From Streptomyces corynorhini (GTDB lineage: Bacteria; Actinomycetota; Actinomycetes; Streptomycetales; Streptomycetaceae), in the NCBI RefSeq assembly GCF_003346515.1, contig NZ_QQNA01000025.1, positions 1-40,713 on the forward strand: 40,713 nt of DNA. Reading direction: 5' to 3'. Both the position numbers and the translations under genes were made by a program. Shown one piece after another: positions 836-40,464 of this stretch (its first letter is position 1; the number at the start of each line of letters is the position of its first letter). The notes under the pieces are model-generated. The model saw only the letters and a program-made list of their open reading frames with translations, had not been told where the DNA came from and searched no databases.

Positions 836-838
836 CCG

Positions 839-22917: not shown

Positions 22918-24051
22918 ATGTTGTATGCGCTGCCTTCTCTGGATCGCCACGATCACCGCGTCCTCGACGAGATCGAAGTGATACGGGAGGCCCTGCGGAT
23001 TCACCTGCGTGCCCCGCGCCAGTGGGAGGGGCAACTGCGCCGGAACCTGACCGCGCGAGCGATCGCGGGCTCGAACACGATCGAGGGATACGCGGCCAGC
23101 GTCGCCGATGTCGAGGACATCATGCTCGGCGAGGCTCCGGTTGACGCTGGGCGCGCGGTATCCGCAGAGATCGAGGGCTACCGGCAGGCCATGACCTACA
23201 TCCAGCGTCTGGCTGACGCCGGGGAGGACTTCCGCTACAGCAAGGAGCTGCTCAACGCCCTGCATTTCATGATGCAGGGGCACCACCTCCTCAAGAGACC
23301 TGGCTGGTGGCGTACCGGCGCGGTGTACGTGACGTCGCCCGAGGATCCCGCCACCGCGGCCTATACCGCACCGGCCGCTACTGACGTGCCGTCTCTGACG
23401 GCGGAGCTGGTCGCGTGGCTGAACGACGGTGATCCGCAGGCCCCCGCGCTGGTGCGGGCCGCGATGGCGCATCTGAACCTTGTCGCCATCCACCCCTGGT
23501 CCGATGGCAACGGACGTATGTCCCGCGCCCTTCAGACCTTGATGCTGGCGCGGGAGGGCATCCTGGCGCCGGAGTTCTCCAGCATCGAGGAATGGCTCGG
23601 CCGCGCGCGTAACACCTACCGCTACTACGACGTCCTCGCTGACGTCGGCGGTCCCGTCTGGACTCCCGACCGTGACACCCACGCCTGGGTGCGGTTCTGC
23701 CTGCGCGCCCATCACCAACAGGCGCAGACCGTACGGCGTCAGGTCGAGACCACCGCGGCCGTCTGGACCGCGCTGGACGAGGCCGTCGCCGGTCGGGGCT
23801 GGCCCGATCGCATGCTGCACGCCCTCTATCCGGCCGTCATGGCCGGCCGCGTACGCCGCGCCACCTATGAGGTCGACGCCGAGCTGAGCGAACAGCAGGC
23901 CCAACGCGACCTGCGGGAACTGGTCAACGCCGAGTGGCTGACAGCCCGTGGGCAGGCCCAGGGCCGTTACTACACGGCGGGCAAGGGCCTTCCCGAGTCC
24001 GTCCGGCTGACGCGGTCACCCCAGCCGTTGCGGGACCCGTACGACGCCTGA
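22918..24051 (+). CDS. Fic-family protein (putative AMP transferase, class II)
   Basis: A 377-residue protein. The Fic motif HPWSDGNGRM at residues 192-201 has the catalytic His and the Gly/Asn/Arg residues for nucleotide phosphates. An inhibitory-helix motif, SNTIEG (52-57), fits [S/T]xxxE[G/N] at the N-terminal side, so it would be a self-inhibited class II Fic protein. Between them lies LLNALHFMMQGHH, the Fic/DOC N-terminal segment. The C-terminal 100 residues form a winged-helix-like domain (YEVDAELSEQQAQRDLREL). The usual reaction is transfer of AMP or a related nucleotide onto a protein hydroxyl. It is a single-gene unit, with a repeat-rich gap before the peptide gene. The target is unknown. 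Confidence 0.92.
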   Translation: MLYALPSLDRHDHRVLDEIEVIREALRIHLRAPRQWEGQLRRNLTARAIAGSNTIEGYAASVADVEDIMLGEAPVDAGRAVSAEIEGYRQAMTYIQRLADAGEDFRYSKELLNALHFMMQGHHLLKRPGWWRTGAVYVTSPEDPATAAYTAPAATDVPSLTAELVAWLNDGDPQAPALVRAAMAHLNLVAIHPWSDGNGRMSRALQTLMLAREGILAPEFSSIEEWLGRARNTYRYYDVLADVGGPVWTPDRDTHAWVRFCLRAHHQQAQTVRRQVETTAAVWTALDEAVAGRGWPDRMLHALYPAVMAGRVRRATYEVDAELSEQQAQRDLRELVNAEWLTARGQAQGRYYTAGKGLPESVRLTRSPQPLRDPYDA

Positions 24052-24058
24052 CCGGCGC

Positions 24059-24121
24059 GGGAGGTGTGGGAGGTGTGGGAGGTGCGGGAGGCGCGGGATT
24101 CCACGGGAGGTGCGGGAGGCG
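24059..24121. repeat. GGAGGTGYGG repeat after the fic gene
   Basis: Six or seven GGGAGGTGTG-like decamers, some as GGGAGGCGCG, follow the fic stop. Each resembles a ribosome site, but no start codon opens a sensible gene from them. Confidence 0.8.
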
Positions 24122-24265
24122 CTCACCCGGGCGCGCCGGGAGTCGGCGGGCCGGCGGGGGCTGTGCTGTCGCGGGCGTGACTTTTCGGCCCTCTTGACGC
24201 TGTCGACCTCGGGGAGTGATGATGCGGTGACATAAGGTAGCGGGCTGGATGGATGAGGTGAATCG

Positions 24266-24418
24266 ATGAGCGTTCGATTGATCGCCCACACCGCACAAGG
24301 TGGCGGGCACGGCAAGGACGAGGGCGAAGGAGACGGGCACCCCGGTCAGCCGTGGTCGCCGACCGACGAGCCCACCCCCGACGGTTCGACGCCGCCCGGC
24401 GAGGGGACGCACAAATAG
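24266..24418 (+). CDS. 50-residue candidate RiPP precursor, coupled to a PIMT-like enzyme
   Basis: A small gene with a strong ribosome site (GAGGTGA at 24255-24261) and ATG 24266. The peptide begins MSVRLIAHTAQGGGHG and becomes acidic and Pro/Gly-rich; it has no signal peptide, Cys or membrane segment. Two Asp-Gly pairs (D23-G24 and D39-G40) stand out, since Asp-Gly is the preferred site of aspartimide formation by PIMT-type O-methyltransferases. The TAG stop shares its last base with the GTG start of the methyltransferase gene, so both are translated together. I infer a precursor peptide of the imiditide kind (aspartimide made directly by the methyltransferase, without an ATP-grasp or lanthipeptide synthetase). 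The leader/core border is not visible. Alternatively it is only a coupling leader peptide. Confidence 0.65.
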   Translation: MSVRLIAHTAQGGGHGKDEGEGDGHPGQPWSPTDEPTPDGSTPPGEGTHK

Positions 24419-25608
24419 TGTCGAGTTCCACCGAGCACGCGGGGCGGCCCACTCATGAGGAGTTGGGCCGCCGCCTCCTGGACTCGGGTTCCATGGCGCC
24501 CGACTGGGCCGAAGCCTATGAGGCCGTGCCCCGCTCCCGCTTCCTGCCGGATCTGATGTGGCCGCATTCCATGGCCACCGGCCGAAATGTCGCGGTCGAC
24601 AAGAGGCGGGACCCGCAGGCGTGGCAGAGGTACGCCGACTCGGACGACCCCATCGTCACCCAGTGGGACGACGGCGCTCACGACGGCCAGGAGCCGGGCA
24701 CGTCGTTCAGTTCGTCGTCGTCCATGCCGAGCCTGGTCTTCTCGATGCTGGCCGACCTCGCGGTGCGGCCGGGGCAGCGTGTGTTGGAGATCGGCGCCGG
24801 CACGGGATGGAACGCCGGTCTTCTGGCCCACCGTCTCGGCGCCGCGAACGTCGTCACCACAGAAGTGGACGGCGCCGTCGCGTCAGCGGCACAGGAGGCG
24901 TTGGACCGTTGCGGGCTGCCGGTGGAGGTGGTGCACGGAGACGGCTTCCTCGGGTACGCGAAACGGGCCCCGTACGACCGGATCATCGCCACGTGCGGTC
25001 TGCGAAAGGTCCCTTTCGCATGGGTGGAGCAGTCCAGCCCCGGAGGCGTGATCCTCGTTCCCTGGGGGACCTATTACGGACCAGGCGAGGCCACAAGCCG
25101 GTTGGTGGTCGCCGACGACTGCCGGAGTGCGTCAGGGCCGTTCTCGCGTCCCGTGGCGTTTATGCGCATGCGCTCCCAGCGGTTCGCGTGGCCCCGGCAT
25201 GACGCGTACGTACCGGAGGGCGCGATGGACGCCGCCGCCACGTCGTTCACGTCGGTCACCGAGGCGGAACTGCGCGGCACGGGTAATTTCGACGTGATCG
25301 GATTCGCGCTGGGCCTGCGCGTGCCCGCCGTCACCCACATCGCCGACCGCAAGCGCGACGGAAAGCGTGCCGTGTGGTTCTACGGACTGTCGGACAGGTC
25401 GTGGGCGGTGGTGGTCTTCCGTGACGACCGCGCGGAATCCAAGGTGTACCAGTCGGGCCCCCGACGTCTCTGGGACGAAGTGGAAGCCGCGCACAAGTGG
25501 TGGGTGGAGCAGGGGAGCCCAGACTTCCCCCGCTTCGGCCTGACCGTGGACGCGGACGGCGAACGGGCGTGGCTGGACTCGCCGGACAACCCCGTGGCGG
25601 CGTGGTGA
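24418..25608 (+). CDS. PIMT-like O-methyltransferase with C-terminal extension (RiPP maturase candidate)
   Basis: A 396-residue protein. Its first 215 or so residues are a protein-L-isoaspartate methyltransferase fold: YEAVPRSRFLPD, the Ser-rich SSSSSMPSLVFSML block, SAM motif I VLEIGAGTGWNA at about 122-133, TTEVD, and PYDRIIATCGLRKVP. A further 180 residues (from about VVADDCRS) end in WWVEQGSPDFPRFGLTVD; repair-type PIMTs of about 210 residues lack this. Similar extended enzymes accompany graspetide, lanthipeptide, FxLD and imiditide systems, in which they methylate a precursor Asp that then cyclises to aspartimide. Here the only partner is the overlapping 50-residue gene. GTG 24418 was chosen because it couples to that stop; upstream in-frame codons overlap the peptide gene. 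Confidence 0.85.
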   Translation: MSSSTEHAGRPTHEELGRRLLDSGSMAPDWAEAYEAVPRSRFLPDLMWPHSMATGRNVAVDKRRDPQAWQRYADSDDPIVTQWDDGAHDGQEPGTSFSSSSSMPSLVFSMLADLAVRPGQRVLEIGAGTGWNAGLLAHRLGAANVVTTEVDGAVASAAQEALDRCGLPVEVVHGDGFLGYAKRAPYDRIIATCGLRKVPFAWVEQSSPGGVILVPWGTYYGPGEATSRLVVADDCRSASGPFSRPVAFMRMRSQRFAWPRHDAYVPEGAMDAAATSFTSVTEAELRGTGNFDVIGFALGLRVPAVTHIADRKRDGKRAVWFYGLSDRSWAVVVFRDDRAESKVYQSGPRRLWDEVEAAHKWWVEQGSPDFPRFGLTVDADGERAWLDSPDNPVAAW

Positions 25609-25695: not shown

Positions 25696-25899
25696 TTACC
25701 GGGCGGCGAAGGCGACGAAGTCGGTCCAGGCGGCGGGGGTGGGGGTGAGGACCGGGCCGGTGGGGGTTTTGCTGTCGCGGACGGGGACGATGCCGGAGGT
25801 GGCGGCGAGGTTACGGGCGAACTCGACGCACTGGCCTTCCTGGCCGTTGCTGTAGCTGGACTTCTCCCAGTGCGCGGCGGAGAGATCGGGTGTGTTCAT
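25696..25899 (-). CDS. DUF397 domain protein
   Basis: A 67-residue DUF397 protein: WEKSSYSNGQEGQCVEFAR, then VPVRDSKTPTGPVL and a final WTDFVAFA, all typical. ATG 25899 overlaps the stop of the XRE/DUF5753 gene by four bases (ATGA), which favours it over an ATG three codons upstream. DUF397 proteins pair with XRE-DUF5753 regulators in Streptomyces (the WhiJ-type arrangement) and in some cases modulate the partner's DNA binding. The pair probably acts as one regulatory unit. Confidence 0.93.
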   Translation of the reverse strand: MNTPDLSAAHWEKSSYSNGQEGQCVEFARNLAATSGIVPVRDSKTPTGPVLTPTPAAWTDFVAFAAR

Positions 25900-26735
25900 T
25901 GGGTCCATTCCTCCATCGCCTTGTGCATAAAGTCGAGCGACGCTTCCGGGGAAAGCGCGTCGGCACGTAGCCGATCGTAAAGCACGGTCGCATCCGCCAC
26001 GACAGTCCGGGAGTCGTTCACATGACCTGAGTTCGGGGTCTCCTGGTAGAGGATGTCCGGCTCATCGTCGTTGTCATCGAACCTCAGCAGTGTGAAGGAC
26101 AACGGCCAGGCGGGGGCCCCGGAATCGAACGGGAGCACCTGGATGGTGAAGCTGGGGGACTGTGCCTCCCTGATCAGATACGCCAACTGTGCGGCCATGA
26201 CTGCCGGCGTGCCGATCCGGCGGCGTAGACATGACTCGTCCACGACGACCCAAACAAGCGGCGGCTGCGCGCTCTTGAGGATCTGGCGGCGCTTCAATCG
26301 CCTCCCGACCTTCGCGGCGGTCTGTTCCACGGTGTCGCTCGGGCATACCTTCCTGAAGATCGCTTCGGCGTACGCCTCCGTCTGTAGCAGGCCCATGATC
26401 AAACCCGAGCTGTAATCCAGGACCGCCGAAGCCTTCTCCTCCAGCATCCGGTACGGCTCGAACCAGTCCGGATACCCACCCTTCTGCGCGCACCGGTCCC
26501 GTAGCCGCGCGAACATCTCCGGCGTACCGAAGACTTGGTCGCAGCCCGCCGCGAACTCCGGGCTCGCCATCCGCTCCCCGGCCTCGACCTTCGCCACGTA
26601 CTGCTGCCCGTACCGCGCGGGCGCCCCCACCTCTCGTTGGCTCAGACCCCGCTCAACTCGCCACTCCCGTACCTCATTACCGAAGTAGGCGGCTCCGCTG
26701 ACCGGTCCCACCGGCCTGTTCTGGTCGTGCGTCAT
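25896..26735 (-). CDS. XRE-family regulator with DUF5753 domain
   Basis: A 279-residue regulator. The HTH_31-like N terminus is FGNEVREWRVERGLSQREVG and then YGQQYVAKVEAGERMASPEF. The DUF5753 part starts near residue 100 (VLDYSSGLIMGLLQTEAYAE) and includes ESCLRRRIGTPAVMAAQLAYL and FTIQVLPFDSGAPAW. Such proteins form WhiJ-like regulatory cassettes with a DUF397 partner, here overlapping its 3' end. ATG 26735 has GGAGAGG in front. It diverges from a run of four tiny genes, whose promoter it may control from the 118-base gap. Confidence 0.92.
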   Translation of the reverse strand: MTHDQNRPVGPVSGAAYFGNEVREWRVERGLSQREVGAPARYGQQYVAKVEAGERMASPEFAAGCDQVFGTPEMFARLRDRCAQKGGYPDWFEPYRMLEEKASAVLDYSSGLIMGLLQTEAYAEAIFRKVCPSDTVEQTAAKVGRRLKRRQILKSAQPPLVWVVVDESCLRRRIGTPAVMAAQLAYLIREAQSPSFTIQVLPFDSGAPAWPLSFTLLRFDDNDDEPDILYQETPNSGHVNDSRTVVADATVLYDRLRADALSPEASLDFMHKAMEEWTQ

Positions 26736-29739: not shown

Positions 29740-30495
29740 ATGGGCGACGATTTCGGCCGCTACCGCGGCACGGAGAGCAGGATTCCCCAGTGGCTGCGCA
29801 GGCGCCCCAAGAAGAACGCCGGTGATTCCGCGTTCGGCGAGGGAGACGCGGCGGGTCGTGAGGCGCTGCTGTTCGCTGTCGCCGACGCCGGTATGCCCAT
29901 CTCGCCCGCGGCCCACCCGGTCGGCTACCGATGTTCCTGCGACCGGATCGGCTGTCCCACCCCGGCCAGGCACCCCCTCTCCTTCGCGTGGCAGACCCAG
30001 TCGACCACCGACCGGCCGCAGATCGAGCGCTGGGCGCGCAACCAGCCCGAGGCCAACTTCATCACCGCGACCGGCATGGTCCATGACGTCCTGGACGTCC
30101 CGCTCGAAGCGGGCGGCAGCGCACTGGAACGCCTGCTGGAGCGCGGCATCGACGTCGGCCCGGTGGCCGACTCCGGCGGCGACCGGATGCTCTTCTTCAC
30201 CGCGACCCGGGGCACCCCGGAGGACGAGGACGAGTGGTGGCCGTGTGAGCTGGACTGCCACCCCGAGACGATGGACGAGCACCCGGGCCTGCGCTGGCAC
30301 TGCCGGGGCAGCTACGTGCTCGTACCGCCTGCTCGGCTGCCCGGCGAGCTGTCCGTACGGTGGCTGCGCGGCCCCGAGCATCCGCTGCCCGACCCGCTGA
30401 CGCTGCTGGAGACCCTGACCGACGCCTGCGCCCGGTACGCGGGGGAGAACGGCGAGCTGGATCCGCACGCCGTGGCCTGGCCGCTCGGCCGCTGA
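29740..30495 (+). CDS. Prim-pol (bifunctional DNA primase/polymerase N-terminal) domain protein
   Basis: A 251-residue protein. It reads FAVADAGMPISPAAHPVGYR, CSCDRIGCPTPARHPLSF with the conserved cysteine and HP positions of this small prim-pol group, then ERWARNQPEANFITATGMVH. The D-x-D/E type region is VLDVPLEAGG, where the usual second acidic residue may be lost (LDVP). GDRMLFFTA and WPCELDCHPE follow. Many short Streptomyces proteins carry this domain without helicase; their function is not settled. The ATG at 29740 also has GAGGGG upstream within the leader ORF. Spacing and order do not link it to a replication or plasmid module. Confidence 0.82.
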   Translation: MGDDFGRYRGTESRIPQWLRRRPKKNAGDSAFGEGDAAGREALLFAVADAGMPISPAAHPVGYRCSCDRIGCPTPARHPLSFAWQTQSTTDRPQIERWARNQPEANFITATGMVHDVLDVPLEAGGSALERLLERGIDVGPVADSGGDRMLFFTATRGTPEDEDEWWPCELDCHPETMDEHPGLRWHCRGSYVLVPPARLPGELSVRWLRGPEHPLPDPLTLLETLTDACARYAGENGELDPHAVAWPLGR

Positions 30496-30659: not shown

Positions 30660-31661
30660 CTACGACCCCTTCGCCCCGGTGACGCCCTGGAGCCGCCCCG
30701 CGACCTCCACCGTCGGGGTGTCCGCGTCGGCGCGCGGCACCAGCACCACCTGGCTGGAGACCCACTCCTTCGTCAGGGTGTTGGTCACCTCGCCCGTCAT
30801 CAGCGCCCTGACGTCCTCGCTCACCTTCGGACGCACCCCCTTCGCACCGGTCTGGCGCTCGAAGTAGCGCGTCGCGAAGAAGACCAGCGCGCCCCCGTCC
30901 GCCGTCCGCAGCCCCAGCGGGGCGAAGTCGCCGTCCGTGGCCGCCTGGTCGAGGTACTGGGTGGCTATCCCGGGCAGCCGCTCCTTCGTCTTGCGCGTCT
31001 CCCGCCACTGGCTGGTGTGCGGTCCGTCGGCGAAGTGCGCCGGCTTTCCGTCGCCCAGGTACGAGGCGTACTCCGCGCTCAGCTTCCCGGGCGCCACCGC
31101 CAGCGCCTCGCTGTCCGGCTCCACCGGCTCGGCGAAGCCGTCCGTGTCCTTCTTGAAGGCCGGGACGCCGTTTTCCGGGAGGATGGTCAGATACGGCACC
31201 TGCCACTCGGCGTCCGGCCCGCTCCGTACGAAGACCAGCACCCAGCGGGTGTCGTTCGGCCCGCCGTCGTCCTTGTCGCGGTTGCTGTCGGTGTCCGCGA
31301 CGAACCAGCGCGGCCAGCCCGCCTTCTTGGGGATCGTGAACTTGGCGTCGGACAGCTCCAGCGCCTGGTGCGCCGGATTGCCCCCCGGGCTCGTGATCGA
31401 CCGGGACTTCAGGCCCGCCTGGTTGATCGCGCCCAGCGGACCGGTCACCCGGTCCGCGTCGAGCGCCGGATCGTACGCCTTGTCGGCCGCGTTGTACGCG
31501 TCGGTGAAATCCTTCAGCGCCTGTCCGGCCTCACTCCGGTCCACCGCCGGAAGCACCGCCAACTCCCCGTGCACCGTCACGCATCCGCTCGCCGTCAGCG
31601 ACAGCACCGTCACCGTCGCGAGCCCCGCCGCTGCCCGAATCGGACTTCCCAGCCTGCTCAT
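30660..31661 (-). CDS. Lipoprotein of unknown function behind efeU
   Basis: A 333-residue lipoprotein: signal peptide with lipobox LTASGC (Cys27), then a mature part with LPAVDRSEAGQALKDFTDAY, AINQAGLKSRSITSPGG, WPRWFVADTDSN, RWVLVFVRSGPDAEWQVPYL and GALVFFATRYFERQTGAKG. I recall similar Streptomyces lipoproteins of unknown function but cannot name the family firmly. The ATG at 31661 has an AAGG-type site and lies inside efeU: the two genes overlap by 131 bases in different frames. It is therefore the fourth gene of the efeOBU operon and may work at the outer face of the membrane with the iron permease. Alternatively it is an unrelated passenger. Confidence 0.8.
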   Translation of the reverse strand: MSRLGSPIRAAAGLATVTVLSLTASGCVTVHGELAVLPAVDRSEAGQALKDFTDAYNAADKAYDPALDADRVTGPLGAINQAGLKSRSITSPGGNPAHQALELSDAKFTIPKKAGWPRWFVADTDSNRDKDDGGPNDTRWVLVFVRSGPDAEWQVPYLTILPENGVPAFKKDTDGFAEPVEPDSEALAVAPGKLSAEYASYLGDGKPAHFADGPHTSQWRETRKTKERLPGIATQYLDQAATDGDFAPLGLRTADGGALVFFATRYFERQTGAKGVRPKVSEDVRALMTGEVTNTLTKEWVSSQVVLVPRADADTPTVEVAGRLQGVTGAKGS

Positions 31662-32511
31662 CGGTCGCCTTCTGCTCCTTGACCCCTACGGGGACCCCCG
31701 CTGGACGTCCGAACCCTACCGGGGCGAGGAACAGCGCGAGCGCCGGGACCAGATACAGGAACCAGACGATGACCTGAACCACCGTCGGGTCCGGCTGGAA
31801 GTTGAACACGCCCTTGAGGAGCGTGCCGTACCAGCTGTCCGGCGGGATCGCCGAGCTGATGTCGAAAGCCGTGTGCGACAACCCGCCCACGAAGCCCGCC
31901 TCCTGGAGGTCGTGGACGCCGTACGCGAGCACGCCCGCCGCGACGACCACCAGCATCCCGCCGGTCCAGGTGAAGAACTTGGCCAGATTGATCCGCAGCG
32001 CGCCCCGGTAGAACAGCCAGCCCAGCACCACCGCGCTCGCCAGCCCCAGCAGCACCCCGATCAGCGGCGCGTGCGTGCCGTCCGAGGACGCCCGTACCGA
32101 GGCCCAGACGAACAGCGCCGTCTCCAGCCCCTCCCGGCCCACCGCCAGGAACGCCGTCGCGACCAGCGCCCCCGTACCCATCTGGAGCGCCGCGTCGAGC
32201 TTGGCGCCCAGCGCCGCCCGCAAGTGCCGTGCGGTACGGCGCATCCAGAAGACCATCCAGGTGACCAGGCCCACCGCGATGATCGACAGCGACCCGCCGA
32301 GCGCCTCCTGCGCCTCGAACGTCAGCTCCTGCGAGCCGTACTCCAGCCCGAAGCCGAACGCCAGCGCCAGCACGACCGCGACCCCGATACCGATCCAGAT
32401 GGGGCGCAGCGCGTCCCGCCGCTCCGTCTTCACCAGGTACGCGATCAGGATGCAGACGACGAGACTGGCCTCAAGGCCCTCGCGCAGGCCGATCAGATAG
32501 TTTCCGAACAC
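31531..32511 (-). CDS. efeU: Iron permease EfeU (FTR1 family)
   Basis: A 326-residue membrane protein. Both iron-binding motifs are present: REGLE at residues 10-14 (helix 1) and REGLE at 126-130 (helix 4). Seven hydrophobic helices can be counted, ending with VIVWFLYLVPALALFLAP. The last 50 residues form a hydrophilic tail (VKEQKATDEQAGKSDSGSGG onwards) that is read from the same DNA as the signal peptide of the downstream lipoprotein. In EfeUOB, EfeU moves the iron across the membrane with help from EfeO and EfeB. It starts 48 bases after efeB. Confidence 0.93.
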   Translation of the reverse strand: MFGNYLIGLREGLEASLVVCILIAYLVKTERRDALRPIWIGIGVAVVLALAFGFGLEYGSQELTFEAQEALGGSLSIIAVGLVTWMVFWMRRTARHLRAALGAKLDAALQMGTGALVATAFLAVGREGLETALFVWASVRASSDGTHAPLIGVLLGLASAVVLGWLFYRGALRINLAKFFTWTGGMLVVVAAGVLAYGVHDLQEAGFVGGLSHTAFDISSAIPPDSWYGTLLKGVFNFQPDPTVVQVIVWFLYLVPALALFLAPVGFGRPAGVPVGVKEQKATDEQAGKSDSGSGGARDGDGAVADGERMRDGARGVGGASGGGPE

Positions 32512-32558
32512 GTCCGGAACTCCTTACGAAACGTAGCTTGTGAAGCCTGTGAAGCGGG

Positions 32559-33935
32559 TCAGGAGAGCAGCGTCCGGCCCCACCAGTCGCCCTTGTCCCG
32601 GACGCCCGGCGGGATCGCGAAGACCGCTGAACCCACGTGCTGGATGTATTCGCCCAGCGCGTCCGAGCGCGCCAGGGACCGCTGTACGGGGATGAAGGCG
32701 TCCCGGATGTCGCGCTGGTACGCCAGGAAGAACAGCCCCGCGTCGAGCCGGCCGAGACCGTCCGTGCCGTCGGTGAACGAGTAGCCGCGGCGCAGCATCC
32801 GCACCCCGTGGTGAGCATCGGGATGGGCCAGGCGCACATGCGAAGTCGGCAGCATCGCCTTGAGGTTGGGCTTGTCGTGCTCGCGCGCCCTGCCGACCGC
32901 CGCGCCCTCGCCCTTGTCCCGGCCGAAGACGTCCTCCTGCTCCTGGAGCGAGGTGCGGTCCCAGCTCTCGATCCGCATGGAGATCCGGCGGGCGACCAGG
33001 TACGAGCCACCGGCCATCCACTCCGCGCCGTCCTTCGCCGCCGCCCAGACGTACCGGTCCAGCGCGTCGGACTCGGTACCGGCGATATTGCTGGTGCCGT
33101 CCTTGAAACCGAAGAGGTTACGGGGGGTCTGGGCGCCCGGGGTGGTCGAGGACGTCTTGCCGAAGCCGAGCTGCGACCAGCGCACCGCGACCTTCCCGAA
33201 GCCGATCCTGGCGAGGTTGCGGATCGCGTGCACGGCGACCTGTGGATCGTCCGCGCACGCCTGCACGCACAGATCGCCGCCGCCGCGGGCCGGATCGAGG
33301 CTGTCGCCGGGGAACTTCGGCAGGTCGGCCAGGGCCGCCGGGCGACGCGACGCCAGCCCGAACCGGTCCCCGCCGCTCCTGCCGCCGCTCGTACCGTCGC
33401 TCCTGCCGTCACTCCTGCCGCCGTTCGTACCGCCGTTCGTACCGCCGCTCTTGACGCCGTTCGTACCGCCGTTCTGGGTGAACAGCCCGGGACCGAACCC
33501 GACGGTCAGCGTCAGCCGGGACGGCGGCAGGCCCAGCGCCTCGCCCGTGTCGTCGGGCGGCGCCTCGGGCAGCCCGCCGTACGCGCCGTCGCCGACCGCG
33601 TGCCCGGCCGTCATCCGCTCGGCGGCCCGCGTCCAGTCCTTGAGGAGCTGGATCAACTCCGTACGGTCGTCCGTCGTCACGTCGAACGCGGCGAAGTGCA
33701 GCCGGTCCTGCACGGGCGTGGCGATCCCCGCCTGGTGGGCGCCGTGGAAGGCCACCGCCGCGCCGCTGTCCGAGGCCCGCGCCGTGGTGTCCCCGTCGCG
33801 CAGGGCCGCCGCCGCGCCGCCGGCCGCCGCAGCGCCGAGCGCGAGCCCCGCCCCGCCCCAGCCGAGCAGGGCGCGGCGGGAGGGCGCGGGGTTCTCGTCC
33901 GCCGCGCCCCGTTCCGTCGATTCGTCTTCGCGCAT
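32559..33935 (-). CDS. efeB: Deferrochelatase/DyP-type peroxidase EfeB
   Basis: A 458-residue Tat-exported heme peroxidase. SRRALLGWGG with two arginines at 20-21 and the following hydrophobic stretch make the Tat signal. The DyP hallmark GFKDG is present, and the proximal heme ligand is likely the His in the HPDAHHGVRMLRRGYSF region. Residues about 152-191 are an inserted run of Asn/Gly/Ser repeats (NGGTNG-, RSDG-type), absent from standard EfeB. EfeB oxidises ferrous iron or takes iron from heme and hands it to the permease. Start ATG 33935 is the one that gives the Tat signal; it is 20 bases after efeO. Confidence 0.93.
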   Translation of the reverse strand: MREDESTERGAADENPAPSRRALLGWGGAGLALGAAAAGGAAAALRDGDTTARASDSGAAVAFHGAHQAGIATPVQDRLHFAAFDVTTDDRTELIQLLKDWTRAAERMTAGHAVGDGAYGGLPEAPPDDTGEALGLPPSRLTLTVGFGPGLFTQNGGTNGVKSGGTNGGTNGGRSDGRSDGTSGGRSGGDRFGLASRRPAALADLPKFPGDSLDPARGGGDLCVQACADDPQVAVHAIRNLARIGFGKVAVRWSQLGFGKTSSTTPGAQTPRNLFGFKDGTSNIAGTESDALDRYVWAAAKDGAEWMAGGSYLVARRISMRIESWDRTSLQEQEDVFGRDKGEGAAVGRAREHDKPNLKAMLPTSHVRLAHPDAHHGVRMLRRGYSFTDGTDGLGRLDAGLFFLAYQRDIRDAFIPVQRSLARSDALGEYIQHVGSAVFAIPPGVRDKGDWWGRTLLS

Positions 33936-33955
33936 CGCTGCCTGACCCGCTCGTC

Positions 33956-35110
33956 CTACTTGACCACGGCGGCGGCGAGCTTGGACAGCGGCTCGGCCAG
34001 TGCGTTGACGCCGTCCGACAGCTCCTTGCGCTGCGCCTTGGTGACCTTCTCGTACGAGGTGAACTCGTAGGAGTCCGCGCCGTCGCGGTACTTGTCGAGC
34101 AGCTTGTTCAACGTGGCGAACTGCTTGTCCAGTTCGGTCACCAGCGCCGCGTCGTTCTTCTCCGCGACCGGCTTGAGCAGCTCGTACGACTTCTGCGCGC
34201 CCTCGACGTTGGCCTTGAAGTCGACCAGGTCGGTGTGGCTGTAGCGCTCCTCCTCGCCGGTGACCTTGCCCGAGGCGACCTCGTCGAGCAGCTCCTTGGC
34301 GCCGTTGGCCATCGAGGTCGGGGTGATCTCCGCCTTGCCGACCCGCTTCTGCCAGTCGAGGAGATCCTTGTCCAGCTCGTCGGCGAGGGACGTGGCGTCC
34401 GCGCCGAGCGTGCCGTCCTGCCACAGCTCCTTCTCCAGCCGGTGCCAGCCGGTCCACTTCTGGCCGTCCTCCAGGCCGTCCGCGCGGGTGTCGACCTTCG
34501 GGTCGATGTCGCCGAACGACTCGGCGACCGGCTCGGTGCGCTCCCAGCCGATGCGCGAGGGCGCGTACGCCTTCTTGGCCGCCGCCAGATCACCGGCGCG
34601 CACGGCGTCCGTGAAGACCTTCACCTTCGGCAGCGTCTCGTCCGCCTGCTCCTGGACGTAGGTGCGGTACGCGGCGACGGCGGCGTCCATCTCCGGGCTG
34701 CGCTTGGCCGCCGTACCGCCGGTGACGGTGACCTTCTGGCGGATGCCGCTGCCCTTCATGCCGGGCTTGCAGGCGATCTCGTAGCTGCCCGCCTTGACCT
34801 CGGCGGTCACCTTGGCCTTCGTACCCGGGCCGATGTTCTCGCGCTCGGTGACGATCCGGTCGTCGGGGAAGAGGAGATAGACCTCGGTGACCTTCGAGCC
34901 CTTGTTCTCGATGGCCAGCTCCACATGGCCCGCGGGGAACGCGTTCTTCGACACCTCGCAGGAGTCGTCCCCCGCCGTCACCTGGACGGCGCTGCCGCCG
35001 GCCTTGGAGTCGCTCTTCGCCGTGCAGCCGGTGACGGCTGTCAGCGCGGCCACCGTGACGGCGGCGGTGACGACGGAGAGACGGGCGGGTCCGGGACGGA
35101 CGGGTCGCAT
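33956..35110 (-). CDS. efeO: EfeO iron-binding lipoprotein
   Basis: A 384-residue lipoprotein. ATG 35110 was chosen because it opens the signal peptide directly; an upstream in-frame start adds 14 hydrophilic residues. The lipobox is near Cys29 (AVTGC). Residues about 42-130 are a cupredoxin-like domain with Cys51 and Cys114. The rest is the M75 (imelysin-like) helical domain with the HxxE metal motif at His223 and Glu226 (WHRLEKE). EfeO binds iron and passes it to EfeU. It is the first gene of the efe operon, preceded by an iron box. Confidence 0.93.
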   Translation of the reverse strand: MRPVRPGPARLSVVTAAVTVAALTAVTGCTAKSDSKAGGSAVQVTAGDDSCEVSKNAFPAGHVELAIENKGSKVTEVYLLFPDDRIVTERENIGPGTKAKVTAEVKAGSYEIACKPGMKGSGIRQKVTVTGGTAAKRSPEMDAAVAAYRTYVQEQADETLPKVKVFTDAVRAGDLAAAKKAYAPSRIGWERTEPVAESFGDIDPKVDTRADGLEDGQKWTGWHRLEKELWQDGTLGADATSLADELDKDLLDWQKRVGKAEITPTSMANGAKELLDEVASGKVTGEEERYSHTDLVDFKANVEGAQKSYELLKPVAEKNDAALVTELDKQFATLNKLLDKYRDGADSYEFTSYEKVTKAQRKELSDGVNALAEPLSKLAAAVVK

Positions 35111-35179
35111 ACGGGACTCCACGATGGAAGGAAACGGCGAGAAGACGGACATGGCGGGGAAGCGAACCGGCCCAACTTA

Positions 35180-35197
35180 ACTGAGGCTTACCTCAGT
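35180..35197. promoter_or_regulatory. IdeR/DmdR-like iron box upstream of efeO
   Basis: ACTGAGG at 35180-35186 and CCTCAGT at 35191-35197 are exact reverse complements with a CTTA centre. The position is 70-87 bases upstream of the efeO start. GAGGCTTACCTCA is close to the actinobacterial iron-box core (TTAGGTTAGGCTAACCTAA). An iron-dependent repressor (DmdR1/IdeR) is the likely ligand. Confidence 0.72.
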
Positions 35198-35255
35198 AAT
35201 ATCCGTCCGTCCAGTGATTCAGCTCTCAATTCGCCCTCCGGGCCGCCTCAGGACA

Positions 35256-35273
35256 CGGCCCGGACACGGGCCG
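35256..35273. terminator. Weak hairpin between hmuV and efeO
   Basis: CGGCCCG and CGGGCCG form a 7-bp stem over GACA, 46 bases after the hmuV stop (minus strand). It is a weak candidate end for the hmu transcript. Confidence 0.4.
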
Positions 35274-35318
35274 GTCACAGCACCTCCCGGACCGGGCCAC
35301 GACCAGGTAAGGCGCAGG

Positions 35319-36227
35319 TCAAGAGAGCCGTTTCGGCACCACCAGCGGAACACCCGTGCGGGGGTGCGGGAAGACCTCGACGGGCTGCCGGTAGACCCGG
35401 CTCAGCAACGCGTCGCGGAAGACTTCGGCGGGCGGCCCCTCGGCCGCGATCCGGCCGTCGTGCAGTACGGCCGTACGGTCCGCGTGGGCCGCCGCGAGCC
35501 CCAGATCGTGCAGCACGATCACGACCGCGTCGCCCGCCCGCGCCCGCTCCCGGCAGATCCGCAGCACCAACTCCTGGTGGCGCAGGTCCAGCGCGGCGGT
35601 CGGCTCGTCGAGCAGCAGCAGCGGGGCGCGCTGCGCCAGCACCCTGGCGAGCGCCACCCGGGCGCGCTCGCCGCCGGAGAGCGCGGAGAAGGGGCGCGGC
35701 GCGAACGCGGTGACCTCGGTGGCCGCCATCGCCTCGGCGACGGCCGCCCCGTCCTCGTCCTCCAGCGCCGTCCCGGCCCACGGCGCCCGTCCCATCCGTA
35801 CGACGTCCTCGACCGGGAACGGGAAGGACAGCGTCGCGGCCTGCGGCAGCACGGAGCGGCGCAGGGCGAGTTCGGGCGCCGACCACGCGTCGACGGGCCG
35901 CCCGCCGATCCGTACCTCGCCCTGGTCGGGCCGTAGATCGGCGGCGAGCGCGGCCAGCAGCGTCGACTTCCCGGCGCCGTTCGGGCCGACGAGCGCGAGC
36001 ACCTCACCGGCGCGCGCGGTCAGATCGATCCCGCCGAGCACCTCGCGCCCGCCGAGCCGCACACCGAGGCCGTGGGCCTCGGCGACGGGGCAGCCGGGGG
36101 AGACGGGAGGAGGGAGGGCGCGCGAGCGCGCGGCGAACAGACCTCTGAGGCTCGCGGCCCTGGTACGGCTCATGCCCATCCATCCTGGTCGCGGGTTCAT
36201 GCCCAACCACCCTGCTCGCCGGTTCAT
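35319..36227 (-). CDS. hmuV: Heme ABC transporter ATPase HmuV
   Basis: A 302-residue ABC ATPase: Walker A GPNGAGKST, Q-loop near VLPQAATLSF, signature LSGGERARVALARVL, Walker B LLLLDEPTAALD and the H-loop VLHDLGLAA. It matches the FecE/HmuV type used for heme and siderophores. Three 9-residue repeats beginning with Met (MNRRAGWLG, MNPRPGWMG, MSRTRAAS) precede the conserved domain. ATG 36227 overlaps the hmuU stop by four bases (ATGA), so I take it as the start, but ATGs at 36200 and 36173 are also in frame. Confidence 0.92.
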   Translation of the reverse strand: MNRRAGWLGMNPRPGWMGMSRTRAASLRGLFAARSRALPPPVSPGCPVAEAHGLGVRLGGREVLGGIDLTARAGEVLALVGPNGAGKSTLLAALAADLRPDQGEVRIGGRPVDAWSAPELALRRSVLPQAATLSFPFPVEDVVRMGRAPWAGTALEDEDGAAVAEAMAATEVTAFAPRPFSALSGGERARVALARVLAQRAPLLLLDEPTAALDLRHQELVLRICRERARAGDAVVIVLHDLGLAAAHADRTAVLHDGRIAAEGPPAEVFRDALLSRVYRQPVEVFPHPRTGVPLVVPKRLS

Positions 36228-36242
36228 GCCCAACCACCCTGC
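36171..36242. repeat. 27-bp tandem repeat at the hmuU-hmuV junction
   Basis: Three near-identical copies, each starting CATGCCCA on the plus strand, begin at 36171, 36198 and 36225. On the coding strand each supplies an in-frame ATG for hmuV. The right copy overlaps the hmuU stop codon. Confidence 0.9.
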
Positions 36243-37516
36243 CTACGCCGCGTCCTGCGCAGCAGCCAGAAGAAGAACGGACTCCCGAACAGGGCCGTCA
36301 GCACCCCGAGCGGCAGCTCCGCGGGGGCCGCCACCGTGCGGGCCGCCAGATCGCCCGCGAGCAGCACCACCGCGCCGCCCAGCGCGCTGCCCGGCACCAG
36401 GAAGCGGTGGCCGGGGCCGTTCGCCATCCGCAGCAGATGCGGTACCAGCAGCCCGACGAAGGAGATGATCCCCGCCACCGCGACCGCCGCCGCCGTGAGC
36501 AGCGCCACCACCAGGACGAGGACGATACGCAGCCGCTCCACGTCCACGCCCAGGTGCCTGGCGGGCCGTTCGCCGAGCGCCAGCAGGTCCAGTCTCCGGG
36601 CGTAGAAGGGGGCGGCGACCAGCCCCGCCACCGCACACGGCAGCACCGCGAGCACCTTCGGCCAGGTCGCCTGCGCGAGTGAACCGAGCTGCCAGAAGGT
36701 GATCTGGGTGATCTGCGCGTTGTCGGCGAAGAAGATGAAGAGGCCGATCAGGGCCCCCGCGAACGCGTTGACCGCGATGCCGGTCAGGATCAGCGTCACC
36801 ACTTCCGTACGCCCGCCCGACCGGGACAGCGCGTACACCAGCAGGACGGTCCCCAGCCCGGCGACGAACGCGAAGACCGTCACCGTCCAGTTGCCGAACA
36901 GGGTCAGCCCCAGCCCGATCGCGGCCACGGCACCGGCCGCCGCGCCCGCCGAGATCCCGATGACGCCCGGCTCGGCGAGCGGATTGCCGAACACGCCCTG
37001 CATGAGCGCGCCCGCGCAGCCCAGCGAGGCGCCGACGAGCAGGGCGAGGACGACGCGGGGCAGCCGTACGTTCCACAGCACGCTCTCGCCGACCCGGTCC
37101 AGCGCCGCCCCGCCGAGACCGGCGCGGTGCTGGACGGAGGACAGCACGTCGCCGAGGGGGATGTGGTAGGCGCCGATGCCCGCGGAGAGCAGGCAGAGCA
37201 CGGCCAGCGCGCTGATCAGCCCGGCGGTCAGCAGCACGGTCCGGCCGGGGAGGCGCCGGGGGGCGGTCTTGTCGGCTGTCGCGGACGCTGTGGCTGTTGC
37301 GGACGTTGTGGCTGTTGTGGCTGTTGTGGCTGTTGTGGCTGTTGCGGCTGTTGTGGCGGCCTCGGCCGTCTTTGCCGCGTCAGCCGTCTCGGCGTTCTCG
37401 GCCGTCTCCGTCGCGTCAGCCCCTGCCGCGTCGTCTGTCCCTGCCCCTGTGCCTGCCCCTGTGCCTGTGCCTGCCGCTTTGCCTGTCCCGGTTTTCGGGA
37501 CGGGAGTTGTCGTCAC
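36224..37516 (-). CDS. hmuU: Heme ABC transporter permease HmuU (FecCD family)
   Basis: Up to 430 residues from GTG 37516, one base after the hmuT stop. The FecCD permease proper starts near residue 90 (LLTAGLISALAVLCLLSAGI) and shows NVRLPRVVLALLVGASLGCA, QGVFGNPLAEPGVIGISAGA and VGLLVPHLLRMANGPGHRF, all standard. The first 85 residues are a low-complexity Ala/Thr-rich extension coded by simple repeats; they may be a cytoplasmic tail or the true start may be further in. The permease pairs with HmuT and HmuV for heme (or siderophore) import. The heme assignment rests on the neighbouring HtaA-like gene. Confidence 0.9.
   Translation of the reverse strand: MTTTPVPKTGTGKAAGTGTGAGTGAGTDDAAGADATETAENAETADAAKTAEAATTAATATTATTATTATTSATATASATADKTAPRRLPGRTVLLTAGLISALAVLCLLSAGIGAYHIPLGDVLSSVQHRAGLGGAALDRVGESVLWNVRLPRVVLALLVGASLGCAGALMQGVFGNPLAEPGVIGISAGAAAGAVAAIGLGLTLFGNWTVTVFAFVAGLGTVLLVYALSRSGGRTEVVTLILTGIAVNAFAGALIGLFIFFADNAQITQITFWQLGSLAQATWPKVLAVLPCAVAGLVAAPFYARRLDLLALGERPARHLGVDVERLRIVLVLVVALLTAAAVAVAGIISFVGLLVPHLLRMANGPGHRFLVPGSALGGAVVLLAGDLAARTVAAPAELPLGVLTALFGSPFFFWLLRRTRRRQGGWA
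37277..37363. repeat. 9-bp simple repeat in the hmuU 5' region
   Basis: The plus strand shows successive TGTTGTGGC-type nonamers with some CGGACG variants. On the coding strand they give Ala-Thr-Thr-type tripeptides (residues about 51-80 of HmuU). Confidence 0.85.
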
Positions 37517-37517
37517 G

Positions 37518-38588
37518 TCACTTCCCGTTCCCGTACAGCTGCTCGACGATCGAGCGGAGCACCTCGTCCGTGCGCGGGCCGTAGTTCAGCAGCACCCCGT
37601 CCGCGTACGAGACGACCTTCCGGTCCATTCCGGCCGGTGTCTCGGCGACCCCGGGGATCTTCACCAGGCCGTCGATCCCGCCCACCGACTCCAGCCCCTT
37701 GGTCATCACCAGAATCGCGTCGGGCGCCGCCTTGACCAGGGCCTCGCTGGTGATGGGGGTGAAGTCCTTGGAGAGCCCCGACTCCTTCCCCGCGTCGACT
37801 GCGCCCGCCGCCTCCAGCAGCGAACTCGCCCCGGACCGGGCGCCGCCCAGCAGGTAGACGGCGGCCGACCCGCGCAGGTAGAGGAAGGCGACCCGGGGCC
37901 TCTTGCCCGCCTCTGGCTCGGGAATGTCCTTCTGTACGGCGGCGATCCGGTCCTCCGTACGCCGCCGCAGCTCGTCGCCCGCCGCCTTGACGCCCAGCAT
38001 GGCGGCGACCGTGTCGATCCGCTTCCCGACGTCGGCGAGGCTCTTCGCCGGTTCCACCACGACGAGGGGGATGCCCGCGTCACGGATCTGGCCGATGGCC
38101 TCGGCCGGTCCCGTGGTGGTGTCCGCGATGACGAGCGTCGGCCTGAGCGAGAGCACGCCCTCGGCGGAGACGTCGTGGGCGCGGGTGATGACCGGCAACT
38201 TCTCGGCCTGCTCGAACGTGGCGGTGATGTCGCGCGCCACCACCTGCTTCCCGAGACCGAGCGTGAAGACGATCTCGCTCAGCGATCCGGTGAGCGGCAC
38301 GACGCGGTCGGCAGAGGTGACGGTGACCTTCCGGCCGTCCGCCGAGGCGACGGTGGCCGGCAACTCGGGCTTCGGGACGGCCGCCAGCGGCTCCACCCGG
38401 TCGGCGCCCGCGCCGCTGGCGGCTCCGGCCCGCTTGTCCTGATGCGTCCGTTCCGCGTCCGTGCCGCCTCCGCCGCTGCCCCCGCCCCCGTCCCCGCCTC
38501 CGCCTCCGCAGCCGGAGGCGGTCAGGGTGAGGGCGAGTACGGAGAGGAGCGCACCCGCCAGACGTGATCCGCGCACGGAGCGCACCAT
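37518..38588 (-). CDS. hmuT: Heme-binding lipoprotein HmuT (ABC substrate-binding)
   Basis: A 356-residue lipoprotein: lipobox LTASGC with Cys27, then a Gly-rich linker with about 15 glycines. The class III (FecB/TroA-like) binding domain follows: VVPLTGSLSEIVFTLGLGKQ, SLRPTLVIADTTTGPAEAI, FTPITSEALVKAAPDAILVM and KVVSYADGVLLNYG. In Corynebacterium HmuT binds heme through conserved His/Tyr residues; I cannot assign these here with certainty. It is the first gene of hmuTUV and is preceded by an iron box. Confidence 0.9.
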   Translation of the reverse strand: MVRSVRGSRLAGALLSVLALTLTASGCGGGGGDGGGGSGGGGTDAERTHQDKRAGAASGAGADRVEPLAAVPKPELPATVASADGRKVTVTSADRVVPLTGSLSEIVFTLGLGKQVVARDITATFEQAEKLPVITRAHDVSAEGVLSLRPTLVIADTTTGPAEAIGQIRDAGIPLVVVEPAKSLADVGKRIDTVAAMLGVKAAGDELRRRTEDRIAAVQKDIPEPEAGKRPRVAFLYLRGSAAVYLLGGARSGASSLLEAAGAVDAGKESGLSKDFTPITSEALVKAAPDAILVMTKGLESVGGIDGLVKIPGVAETPAGMDRKVVSYADGVLLNYGPRTDEVLRSIVEQLYGNGK

Positions 38589-38639
38589 CCTGTTCTGTTT
38601 CCAGTGCCGGAGGGGGTTCCAGCAGGGGACGGATGTAGC

Positions 38640-38658
38640 TTAGGTTAGCCTTACCTCG
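38640..38658. promoter_or_regulatory. IdeR/DmdR-like iron box between hmuT and htaA
   Basis: TTAGGTTAGCCTTACCTCG matches the 19-bp consensus TTAGGTTAGGCTAACCTAA at most positions. It lies 52 bases upstream of hmuT and 154 bases upstream of the divergent HtaA-like gene, so one repressor site may serve both directions. Confidence 0.82.
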
Positions 38659-38811
38659 CTTTCCAGGCCCGGGGGGTCTTTTCGGATTCCCGTTTTCCCT
38701 GCGTCGCTGTTTTGCCGCATCGCCGCATCGCCGCATCGCTGTTTCGCCGATACGTCGTTTCGTCGTTTCGGCCGGGCGCGTTCAGACGTACACACCGTGG
38801 GAGTGACTTTC

Positions 38812-40464
38812 ATGCTGTCGTTCAGACCCGTGCGCGCGTTCGTCGTCGCGCTTCTGCTGGCGCTGCCGGTGGCTCTGCTCCCCGCCACGGGCGCGCACGC
38901 GGCGGACCGTACGGTGCGGGGCGGCCGACTGGACTGGGGAATCAAATCCTCGTTCCAGAGCTATATCACCGGGCCTATCGCCCAAGGGAGTTGGACGCTC
39001 ACGGGCGGCGCCGCCACGGTCGGCGGCAGCCAATTCCGGTTCCACTCGGCGAGCGGGACCTACGACCCGGCGAGCGGCGCGTTCCGCTCCGGCTTCTCCG
39101 GCGGGGTCCATTTCACCGGCCACAAGAAGTCCGACGGTACGAGTGAACTCGACCTGACCATCTCCAACCCGACCGTGCGGATCTCCGGCGGCAGCGGCAC
39201 GCTCCACGCGGACATGGTCAGCAAGGCGCGGGGGACCGGCAAGGTCACCACGTCCACCCAGGTCGCGTTCGCCTCGCTCAATCTGTCCGGGATCGACATG
39301 CGGGGCGGCGGCAGCCCCATCGCCCTCAACAACGTACCGGCTACGCTCACTTCGCAGGGCGCCGCCGCCTTCGCCGGGTACTACACGGCGGGTACGGAGC
39401 TGGACCCGGTGAGTCTCTCCGTGGACGTCGAGGCGGCGAAGCAACCGCCGCGGTCGGCCGAGCCGAAGGCCACCGCCACGGCGCCGTCCGCGCCGTCGCC
39501 CTCGGTCTCGGCGACGGAGAAGGCGGCCTCCTTCCAGGCCGCGGCCGTCGACTGGGGGGTCCGCCGTACCTACCGCGAGTACGTCACCGGCTCCATCGCG
39601 CAGGGGGAGTGGACGCTGTCCGGCGGAGCCGAGGACGGCGGCGCGCTCTTCCGCTTCCCGAAGGGCAAGGGCGCGTACGACGCCAAGAAGGGCACGCTCG
39701 ACGCCGCGTTCGCGGGCCGGATCCGCTTCACGGGCACCGGGCTCGACCTGACGCTGAGCGAGGTCGCCGTCAAGGTGAAGGACGACAAGGGCACGCTGTA
39801 CGCGAAGGTGACCGACGCGAAGGCCGACGGCGCGGGGAAGGCCGACAGCGCGGGGAAGGCCGACGGCGCGGGGAAGGCCACCGACTCCGCGAAGGCCGAC
39901 GGCGCCGCGAAGGCCGACGGCGCGGGGAAGGCCGACGACTCCGCGAAGGCCGACGGCGCCGCGAAGGCCACCGCCTCCGGCGAGGCCGCCGTACCGCTGG
40001 TCACCTTCCCCGCCGAGGACTTCACGCCGAAGGACGGGCTGGCAGCCCTCACCGAGGCCCCGGCCACGCTGACCGCGCAGGGTGCCAAGGCGTTCGGTTC
40101 GCTCTACCCGGCCGGGACGGAGATGGACCCCGTCTCACTCGCCGTCACCACCGCCGAGAAGGCCCAGCTGCCCGCCCTTCCGGACCTCGGCAGCGACACG
40201 GCCGCTGCGGCCTCCGCGTCGCCCTCCGCCGCCCCGTCCGCCACCGCGACCGGACCGGCCGCCCCTGCCACCGAGGCCGCCGCCTCGTCGTCGTCCGTGG
40301 GCGCCGGCACGTACGGCGCGATCGGCGCGGGCGTGCTGGCAGCCGCCGGGGCCGCGTTCTTCCTGATCCGCAGGCGGCGCGGCGCCACAGGGCCGGGCGG
40401 CACGGGGCCTGGTGCCACGGGACCGGGTGCGGGGCCTGGCGCCACGGGGACCGACACCACCTGA
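38812..40464 (+). CDS. htaA: HtaA-domain heme-binding surface protein (two HtaA domains, C-terminal anchor)
   Basis: A 550-residue exported protein. ATG 38812 is preferred since GGGAG is 8 bases in front; GTGs at 38797 and 38803 are alternatives. Residues 1-31 are a signal peptide ending GAHAAD. Two HtaA domains are seen, the first opening LDWGIKSSFQSYITGPIAQG, the second VDWGVRRTYREYVTGSIAQG; each ends with an EMDPVSLAV- or ELDPVSLSV-type strand. The conserved Tyr in SYITG/EYVTG is the expected heme ligand. The second domain is interrupted by eight Ala-Asp-Gly-Ala-Gly-Lys-like hexapeptides (338-385). A membrane segment (IGAGVLAAAGAAFFLI) and basic RRRR anchor the C terminus. It should capture heme and pass it to HmuT. 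Confidence 0.9.
   Translation: MLSFRPVRAFVVALLLALPVALLPATGAHAADRTVRGGRLDWGIKSSFQSYITGPIAQGSWTLTGGAATVGGSQFRFHSASGTYDPASGAFRSGFSGGVHFTGHKKSDGTSELDLTISNPTVRISGGSGTLHADMVSKARGTGKVTTSTQVAFASLNLSGIDMRGGGSPIALNNVPATLTSQGAAAFAGYYTAGTELDPVSLSVDVEAAKQPPRSAEPKATATAPSAPSPSVSATEKAASFQAAAVDWGVRRTYREYVTGSIAQGEWTLSGGAEDGGALFRFPKGKGAYDAKKGTLDAAFAGRIRFTGTGLDLTLSEVAVKVKDDKGTLYAKVTDAKADGAGKADSAGKADGAGKATDSAKADGAAKADGAGKADDSAKADGAAKATASGEAAVPLVTFPAEDFTPKDGLAALTEAPATLTAQGAKAFGSLYPAGTEMDPVSLAVTTAEKAQLPALPDLGSDTAAAASASPSAAPSATATGPAAPATEAAASSSSVGAGTYGAIGAGVLAAAGAAFFLIRRRRGATGPGGTGPGATGPGAGPGATGTDTT
39823..39966 (+). repeat. 18-bp tandem repeat inside the HtaA-like gene
   Basis: Eight adjacent 18-base units such as GCCGACGGCGCGGGGAAG, all in frame, encode Lys/Ala/Asp-rich hexapeptides in the second HtaA domain. 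Copy-number change would keep the reading frame. Confidence 0.92.

Follow-up and report, generated by a model that had tools for sequence, protein, structure and literature searches.

A small gene overlapping a PIMT-like methyltransferase gene

The 40,713-nucleotide stretch of DNA analyzed here (hereafter, the window) comprises positions 1 to 40,713 of contig NZ_QQNA01000025.1 of Streptomyces corynorhini (assembly GCF_003346515.1). On its forward strand, the window carries two overlapping genes that likely encode a type I pamtide (imiditide) precursor and its modifying enzyme, that is, a pair belonging to an already described class of ribosomally synthesized and post-translationally modified peptides (RiPPs). 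The first gene (24266..24418) starts with ATG, encodes a peptide of 50 amino acids followed by a stop codon, and is preceded, 5 bases upstream of the ATG, by GAGGTG (24255..24260), which, judging by its sequence, likely is the ribosome-binding site. The second gene (24418..25608) starts with GTG and encodes a 396-amino-acid O-methyltransferase of the PAMT kind that resembles protein isoaspartyl methyltransferases (PIMT). The TAG stop codon of the precursor gene (24416-24418) shares a single base, 24418, with the GTG of the enzyme gene. An alternative, in-frame GTG located upstream, at 24352, would yield a 418-amino-acid enzyme, but the start of the 396-amino-acid form is the one matched by several close homologs. 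The peptide gene with its good ribosome-binding site, the one-base overlap, and the composition of the peptide, with no Cys, a single Trp (W30) and two Asp-Gly pairs (D23-G24 and D39-G40), had all been described in an earlier reading of this DNA from the sequence alone (the sequence-only reading), and were confirmed here.

The conserved part of the precursor extends from D23 to K50 (24332..24415; forward strand, as are all other elements of the two genes) and consists of a D-x-x-P-G element, a P-D-G motif and a basic tail. D23-G24 (24332..24337) lies in the D-x-x-P-G element and D39-G40 (24380..24385) in the P-D-G motif.

The peptide gene is under selection and accompanies the enzyme gene across many genomes

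Comparison of the peptide with other proteins produced 8 matches at E ≤ 0.001, with 59-78% identity. Across the nine aligned peptides, D23, G24, W30, D39 and G40 are invariant, and the N-terminal part is variable. In a 30-codon conserved block from 12 distinct sequences, including that from the window, the ratio of nonsynonymous to synonymous changes (pN/pS) was 0.31 in the frame of the peptide vs 2.2 and 1.6 in the alternative frames, with most of the variation at third codon positions. Thus, the small gene is real and evolves under purifying selection in its own frame.

The sequence-only reading had proposed that a search for homologs of the methyltransferase, with inspection of the upstream DNA for a small open reading frame (ORF), would show whether the two genes belong together. 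We approached this question from both sides. When 295 genomes of the genus of the window were searched with a profile of the peptide, which included no information on the enzyme, 31 places in 26 genomes were identified, the window's own included. Of the 30 places outside the window, 28 adjoin this enzyme or its remains: 25 are located beside an enzyme gene (two of these frame-shifted), two beside a truncated or gap-interrupted enzyme gene, and one beside an enzyme gene of which a deletion has left only the two ends; the remaining two, without the enzyme, are weak matches (E = 1.5e-4 and 3.2e-4). From the enzyme side, a search of 392 genomes at E ≤ 1e-110 identified 74 places, and 72 of the 73 outside the window were retrieved. 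The query was P0077, an enzyme from Streptomyces sparsogenes, possibly SpaM, that is 60% identical to the enzyme of the window; no identical match to P0077 was detected in the searched genomes (the best is 76% identical). A precursor, defined as a short, Gly/Pro-rich, Asp-containing ORF close to the enzyme start, was called 5' of the enzyme at 64 of the 72 loci and, in an earlier, partly overlapping scan, at 17 of 19. The small ORF is thus conserved at homologous loci and stays linked to the enzyme, as the hypothesis of the sequence-only reading requires. For the analyses described below, we compiled a non-redundant set of 77 loci, including the window, with enzymes less than 90% identical to each other and scoring at least 340 bits. 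In this set, 71 loci contain a precursor, and in 67 of these, no more than 10 bases separate the precursor stop codon from the enzyme start.

Several individual loci depart from the typical layout. Locus L182 retains an enzyme gene relic that consists of the two ends only; in this single case, P-D-G is replaced by Q-D-S and the D23 motif is intact. At L185, the enzyme lacks its middle part and the precursor is intact. In Streptomyces sp. NPDC091212, a protein (P0002) that is 95% identical to the window enzyme has residues 1-16 of a window-type precursor at its N-terminus, and the enzyme follows without a gap from about residue 16, such that the conserved part of the precursor is gone. Locus L145 (genome G114) encompasses two tandem precursor-like ORFs 5' of one enzyme, one of the TTPGEPWPG...PDGGPGVPNPP type and the other of the HPGTPW type with P-D-S. 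The genome of the window itself encodes five paralogous enzymes (L064, L065, L066, L067 and L069, on contigs C126, C53, C118, C430 and C445, respectively), with upstream short ORFs of a different make-up that contain S-D-G-H or S-D-G-Q and a basic C-terminus; therefore, this strain might hold several different pamtide-like loci.

The methyltransferase combines a PIMT fold with a C-terminal domain

The Pfam PCMT domain matches residues 97-217 of the enzyme (E = 1.4e-24), leaving about 179 residues beyond the match, in agreement with the C-terminal extension of about 180 residues noted from the sequence. The S-adenosylmethionine (SAM)-binding motif I, VLEIGAGTGWN (24781..24813), is recognizable in the sequence, and the name of this motif is used in a review of the class (PMC13001092). 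The methyltransferase domain is similar to structurally characterized repair PIMTs, and the remaining matches in the fold search are generic SAM methyltransferases. The structural model aligns up to residue 388 with the PIMT of Thermotoga maritima (PDB 1dl5), a named repair enzyme (25% identity over the aligned part, root-mean-square deviation 6.4). The region beyond the PCMT match (residues 218-396; 25069..25605) is modeled as a C-terminal domain of more than 100 residues, with a predicted order of strand (274-278), helix (293-301), four strands (305-309, 316-323, 329-335 and 341-346) and helix (351-364), the same arrangement as published for the extra domain of type I pamtide enzymes; this domain might bind the precursor. 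The WXXXGXP motif that is described for RiPP-associated PIMTs (PMC13001092) is present as WVEQGSP (residues 362-368; 25501..25521), and its exact form is found in 72 of the 89 non-redundant relatives of the enzyme. Overall, the enzyme combines the PIMT fold with the C-terminal domain and the motif of RiPP-associated PIMTs.

Given this similarity to repair enzymes, one alternative is that the methyltransferase itself functions in repair, as a PIMT, with the small ORF either serving as a translational leader or having no relationship to the enzyme. We consider this very unlikely because the peptide evolves under purifying selection and is kept together with this branch of enzymes, in 28 of the 30 places found by the peptide search, and because the C-terminal domain is reported to mark the RiPP-associated homologs (PMC10787088).

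Asp39 is the likely target of modification

The sequence-only reading had treated the two Asp-Gly pairs alike, as sites for aspartimide formation. Both pairs are indeed present, but they are not equal. Among the 71 non-redundant precursors, the D39 position is occupied by P-D-G in 64, P-D-T or P-D-S in three, S/T-D-G in three and P-N-G in one. D23 is found within D-x-x-P-G in 61, and the residue that follows it is free: Gly in 35, Lys in 15, Ser and Asn in 3 each, and Arg, Thr, Glu, Asp and Ala in one each. Six loci lack D23 yet retain PDG (L125, L126, L146 and L163-L165), although in L146, the N-terminal half of the precursor appears to be frame-shifted. A profile search recovered 264 relatives among 4669 candidates; of the 120 matches listed (the window included), 119 contain PDG and 119 contain D-x-x-P-G, a sample that is biased towards the profile. 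Given the pattern in the wider family and the constancy of the following glycine, we chose D39 as the predicted modification site: as far as can be judged from sequence conservation, Asp39 in P-D-G is the likely target, whereas Asp23, with its mostly retained aspartate and free next residue, probably is a recognition element or an optional second site. The tails of the 71 precursors fall into three main types, namely, basic (xHRK, HKK and similar; 39 precursors), GPGVPNPP (20) and GPKxIG (7), with 5 others.

It is conceivable that, in the subfamily that includes the window, both D23 and D39 are targets, resulting in a doubly aspartimidylated or doubly isoaspartyl peptide. Both pairs are invariant in the nine closest peptides, 33 of the 71 precursors carry D23-G24 together with P-D-G, and Gly is not required after a modified Asp, given that in NmaA, the modified Asp is reported to precede His (PMC13001092). 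However, the free residue after D23, the loss of D23 in the six loci listed above, and the description of the named members of the class with a single modified Asp (PMC10787088, PMC13001092) make modification at two sites unlikely.

At one locus (L161, genome G255), Asn occupies the predicted target position (P-N-G) of an otherwise normal precursor.

No other RiPP enzyme is found among the scanned genes of the window

We scanned 39 of the 40 called genes of the window against Pfam (all but a 49-amino-acid ORF, 53-202; some with a slightly different start) and found no ATP-grasp, lanthipeptide synthetase, YcaO or radical SAM family among these. The nearest gene of a transporter family, an FTR1 iron permease (31531-32511), is located 5.9 kb downstream, and the nearest genes of peptidase-named families (33956-35152 and 8061-9422) are at least 8 kb away, so that the sequence-only reading, which saw no ATP-grasp, lanthipeptide synthetase, radical SAM enzyme, protease or transporter nearby, was correct over this set of genes. 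The locus shows no recognizable dedicated protease or transporter, nor a site for leader cleavage.

The best NCBIfam model for the enzyme, TIGR04188 (ATP-grasp peptide maturase system methyltransferase), is the reason to consider that the locus might derive from a graspetide system through loss of the ATP-grasp enzyme, with the precursor and a secondary methyltransferase left behind. However, the score of 299.7 bits does not reach the curated cut-off (380), no ATP-grasp family was detected in the scanned window genes, and the two-gene unit recurs across genomes; furthermore, no ATP-grasp was recognized among the neighbor clusters, which were partly scanned, that are present in at least 6 loci. 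We therefore regard such a loss as extremely improbable.

Neighboring genes and a recurring regulator pair

Immediately beyond the enzyme, on the reverse strand, Pfam searches identified a DUF397 protein of 70 amino acids (25696..25908), one half of a regulator pair that is regarded here as associated with the operon rather than as part of it, and an XRE-type regulator with a DUF5753 domain, of 279 amino acids (25896..26735), a recurring neighbor with a possible regulatory role. The XRE regulator has a homolog within about 6.5 kb at 46 of the 77 loci, and DUF397 at 33, compared with 8 (two of these scoring under 30 bits) and 5, respectively, of 40 segments of 14.2 kb picked at random in 20 of the searched genomes, some of the pamtide regions being shorter than these controls due to contig ends. 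For the XRE regulator, Fisher's p is 4e-5, a value that overstates the case because the loci are related by descent and the profiles derive from these very neighbors. When gene calls were used instead, a regulator was located within 3.5 kb at 36 of the 77 loci, in several arrangements. Other recurring neighbors include DUF6879, a HATPase-domain protein, DUF6415 and a protein of about 415 amino acids without a Pfam match.

This association, along with the lack of any recognized adjacent protease or transporter gene, would fit an alternative function, in which the modified peptide, instead of being exported as a natural product, has a regulatory role inside the cell, for example, as a slowly hydrolyzing switch acting on the nearby XRE-DUF5753/DUF397 regulators. 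The association is partial, however, with 31 of the 77 loci carrying neither gene, and involves regulators that are common, with 8-39 DUF5753 genes per genome in 13 genomes of the same genus. The regulators might merely control the operon, and the same DUF397/DUF5753 pair is reported beside graspetides of groups 11 and 13 (PMC13097080). A regulatory function of the peptide is, accordingly, a possibility that we consider rather unlikely. A more specific version, in which one enzyme converts both D23 and D39 into aspartimides, and the resulting doubly kinked Pro/Gly peptide serves as an intracellular, decaying timer for the XRE-DUF5753/DUF397 regulators, appears highly doubtful.

Given that the graspetide case is already in print, the regulator association described here is an extension of it. 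Term searches of the main texts of the two studies on the class (PMC10787088, PMC13001092) returned no link of type I pamtides to DUF397 or such regulators. Pairs of XRE and DUF397 proteins are known in Streptomyces (Scr1/Scr2 and the WhiJ/BldB paralogs), and the window shares with these a DUF5753-type XRE protein and a DUF397 protein just downstream, as neighbors only. The passages on Scr1/Scr2 and WhiJ/BldB in PMC7159879 and PMC10294661 mention no link to pamtides, and a term search of PMC10364602 likewise returned none. The regulatory role of the XRE/DUF397 pair is put forward as a hypothesis.

The remaining genes of the window include a Fic gene (22918-24051) upstream of the pair, which is not among the neighbor clusters seen in at least 6 loci; between this gene and the peptide gene, positions 24059-24119 contain degenerate short repeats of the GGGAGGTGTGG kind. 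A protein with a Prim-Pol (bifunctional primase/polymerase) domain is encoded about 4 kb downstream of the pair (29740-30495). Farther away, the window contains genes of a contractile injection system (398-7982; tail tube, baseplate hub, gp25, baseplate J and P2 tail I families) and iron/heme uptake genes (31531-40464; FTR1 permease, DyP peroxidase, imelysin M75, ABC/FecCD transporter, binding protein and HtaA).

Class assignment and proposed mechanism

The conserved, coupled ORF, the C-terminal domain and WXXXGXP motif of the enzyme, the Gly/Pro/Asp-rich precursor and the lack of another recognized RiPP enzyme in the scanned genes of the window jointly argue for the type I pamtide assignment, and the imiditide-type nature of the locus, first proposed in the sequence-only reading, is well supported. 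With a length of 50 amino acids and 22% Gly, 14% Pro and 8% Asp, the precursor is close to the published type I precursors, which are about 45 amino acids long and contain, on average, 17.3% Gly, 16.8% Pro and 10.2% Asp (PMC10787088). The further suggestion of a possible new subfamily was not substantiated: the published type I class, which the peptide fits, already counts 1414 reported members (PMC13001092).

Several observations weigh against parts of this interpretation. No precursor was called at 8 of the 72 enzyme loci and at 2 of the 19 in the earlier scan, although, given that the caller seeks Gly/Pro-rich, Asp-containing ORFs, some of these misses could be precursors of different make-up. 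The exact WXXXGXP motif is absent from 17 of the 89 relatives of the enzyme. D23 is almost as conserved as D39 in the closer relatives of the window. The peptide is acidic, with a net charge of -5, and thus lacks the strong positive charge reported, as a non-defining property, for imiditide peptides, for which charge-based recognition has been suggested (PMC13001092). Over the 71 loci, the charge of the precursor correlated neither with that of the C-terminal domain (Spearman -0.12, p = 0.31) nor with that of the whole enzyme (Spearman 0.10, p = 0.40). Finally, we modeled a fusion based on six group-B loci, in which the precursor is in frame with the enzyme and the intervening TGA was read as Trp (genetic code 4), aligned with 28 enzymes; in this AlphaFold2 model, the precursor is mostly disordered, with a confidence (pLDDT) of about 30, and the place where P-D-G binds is not indicated. 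Simple charge pairing, as suggested for the known imiditides, was rejected given the uncorrelated charges.

Under the type I pamtide assignment, the product of the small gene would be a linear precursor, and the overlap of the two genes could couple their translation. By homology with SpaA/SpaM and NmaA/NmaM (PMC10787088, PMC13001092), the enzyme would transfer a methyl group from SAM to the Asp39 side chain in P-D-G, the methyl ester would then close to an aspartimide, and the aspartimide would be expected to partly hydrolyze to isoaspartate. The C-terminal domain of the enzyme might bind the precursor, perhaps, via the basic tail, with D23 and its D-x-x-P-G surroundings either aiding recognition or providing an optional second site.

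Two imiditides (type I pamtides) have been heterologously expressed, and the biological function of the modification is described as yet to be discovered (PMC13001092). What the present analysis adds is the prediction of the modification site, the tail types and the association with regulators. The locus and its relatives yield a conservation map of the precursor that consists of the P-D-G target, D-x-x-P-G with a free next residue and the three main tail types, and that reduces the questions of the target Asp and of recognition to a few point mutants. The recurring regulator pair provides a first, still weak, handle on function.

Comparison with known systems

Among the related systems, type II pamtides, or cysimiditides (FcaA-FcaM), share with the window the two-gene layout of a precursor and a PAMT, but not the zinc ribbon with CxxCxGxG occurring twice, which the window precursor lacks because it contains no Cys. 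The graspimiditides (graspetide group 13), with a TIGR04188-type methyltransferase, employ a related enzyme, and DUF397/DUF5753 neighbors occur near groups 11 and 13 as well; in the window, however, no ATP-grasp gene was found, and the TIGR04188 score is under the family cut-off. The closest correspondence is with SpaA-SpaM of Streptomyces sparsogenes and NmaA-NmaM of Nonomuraea maritima, which resemble the window in the two-gene layout, the short Gly/Pro/Asp-rich precursor, the PIMT homolog with a C-terminal domain and WXXXGXP, and the lack of any other recognized primary RiPP enzyme. Compared with SpaA and NmaA as described, the precursor of the window is distinguished by its acidic character (net charge -5), its two Asp-Gly pairs, the combination of P-D-G with D-x-x-P-G, and a tail of the HK/HRK type.
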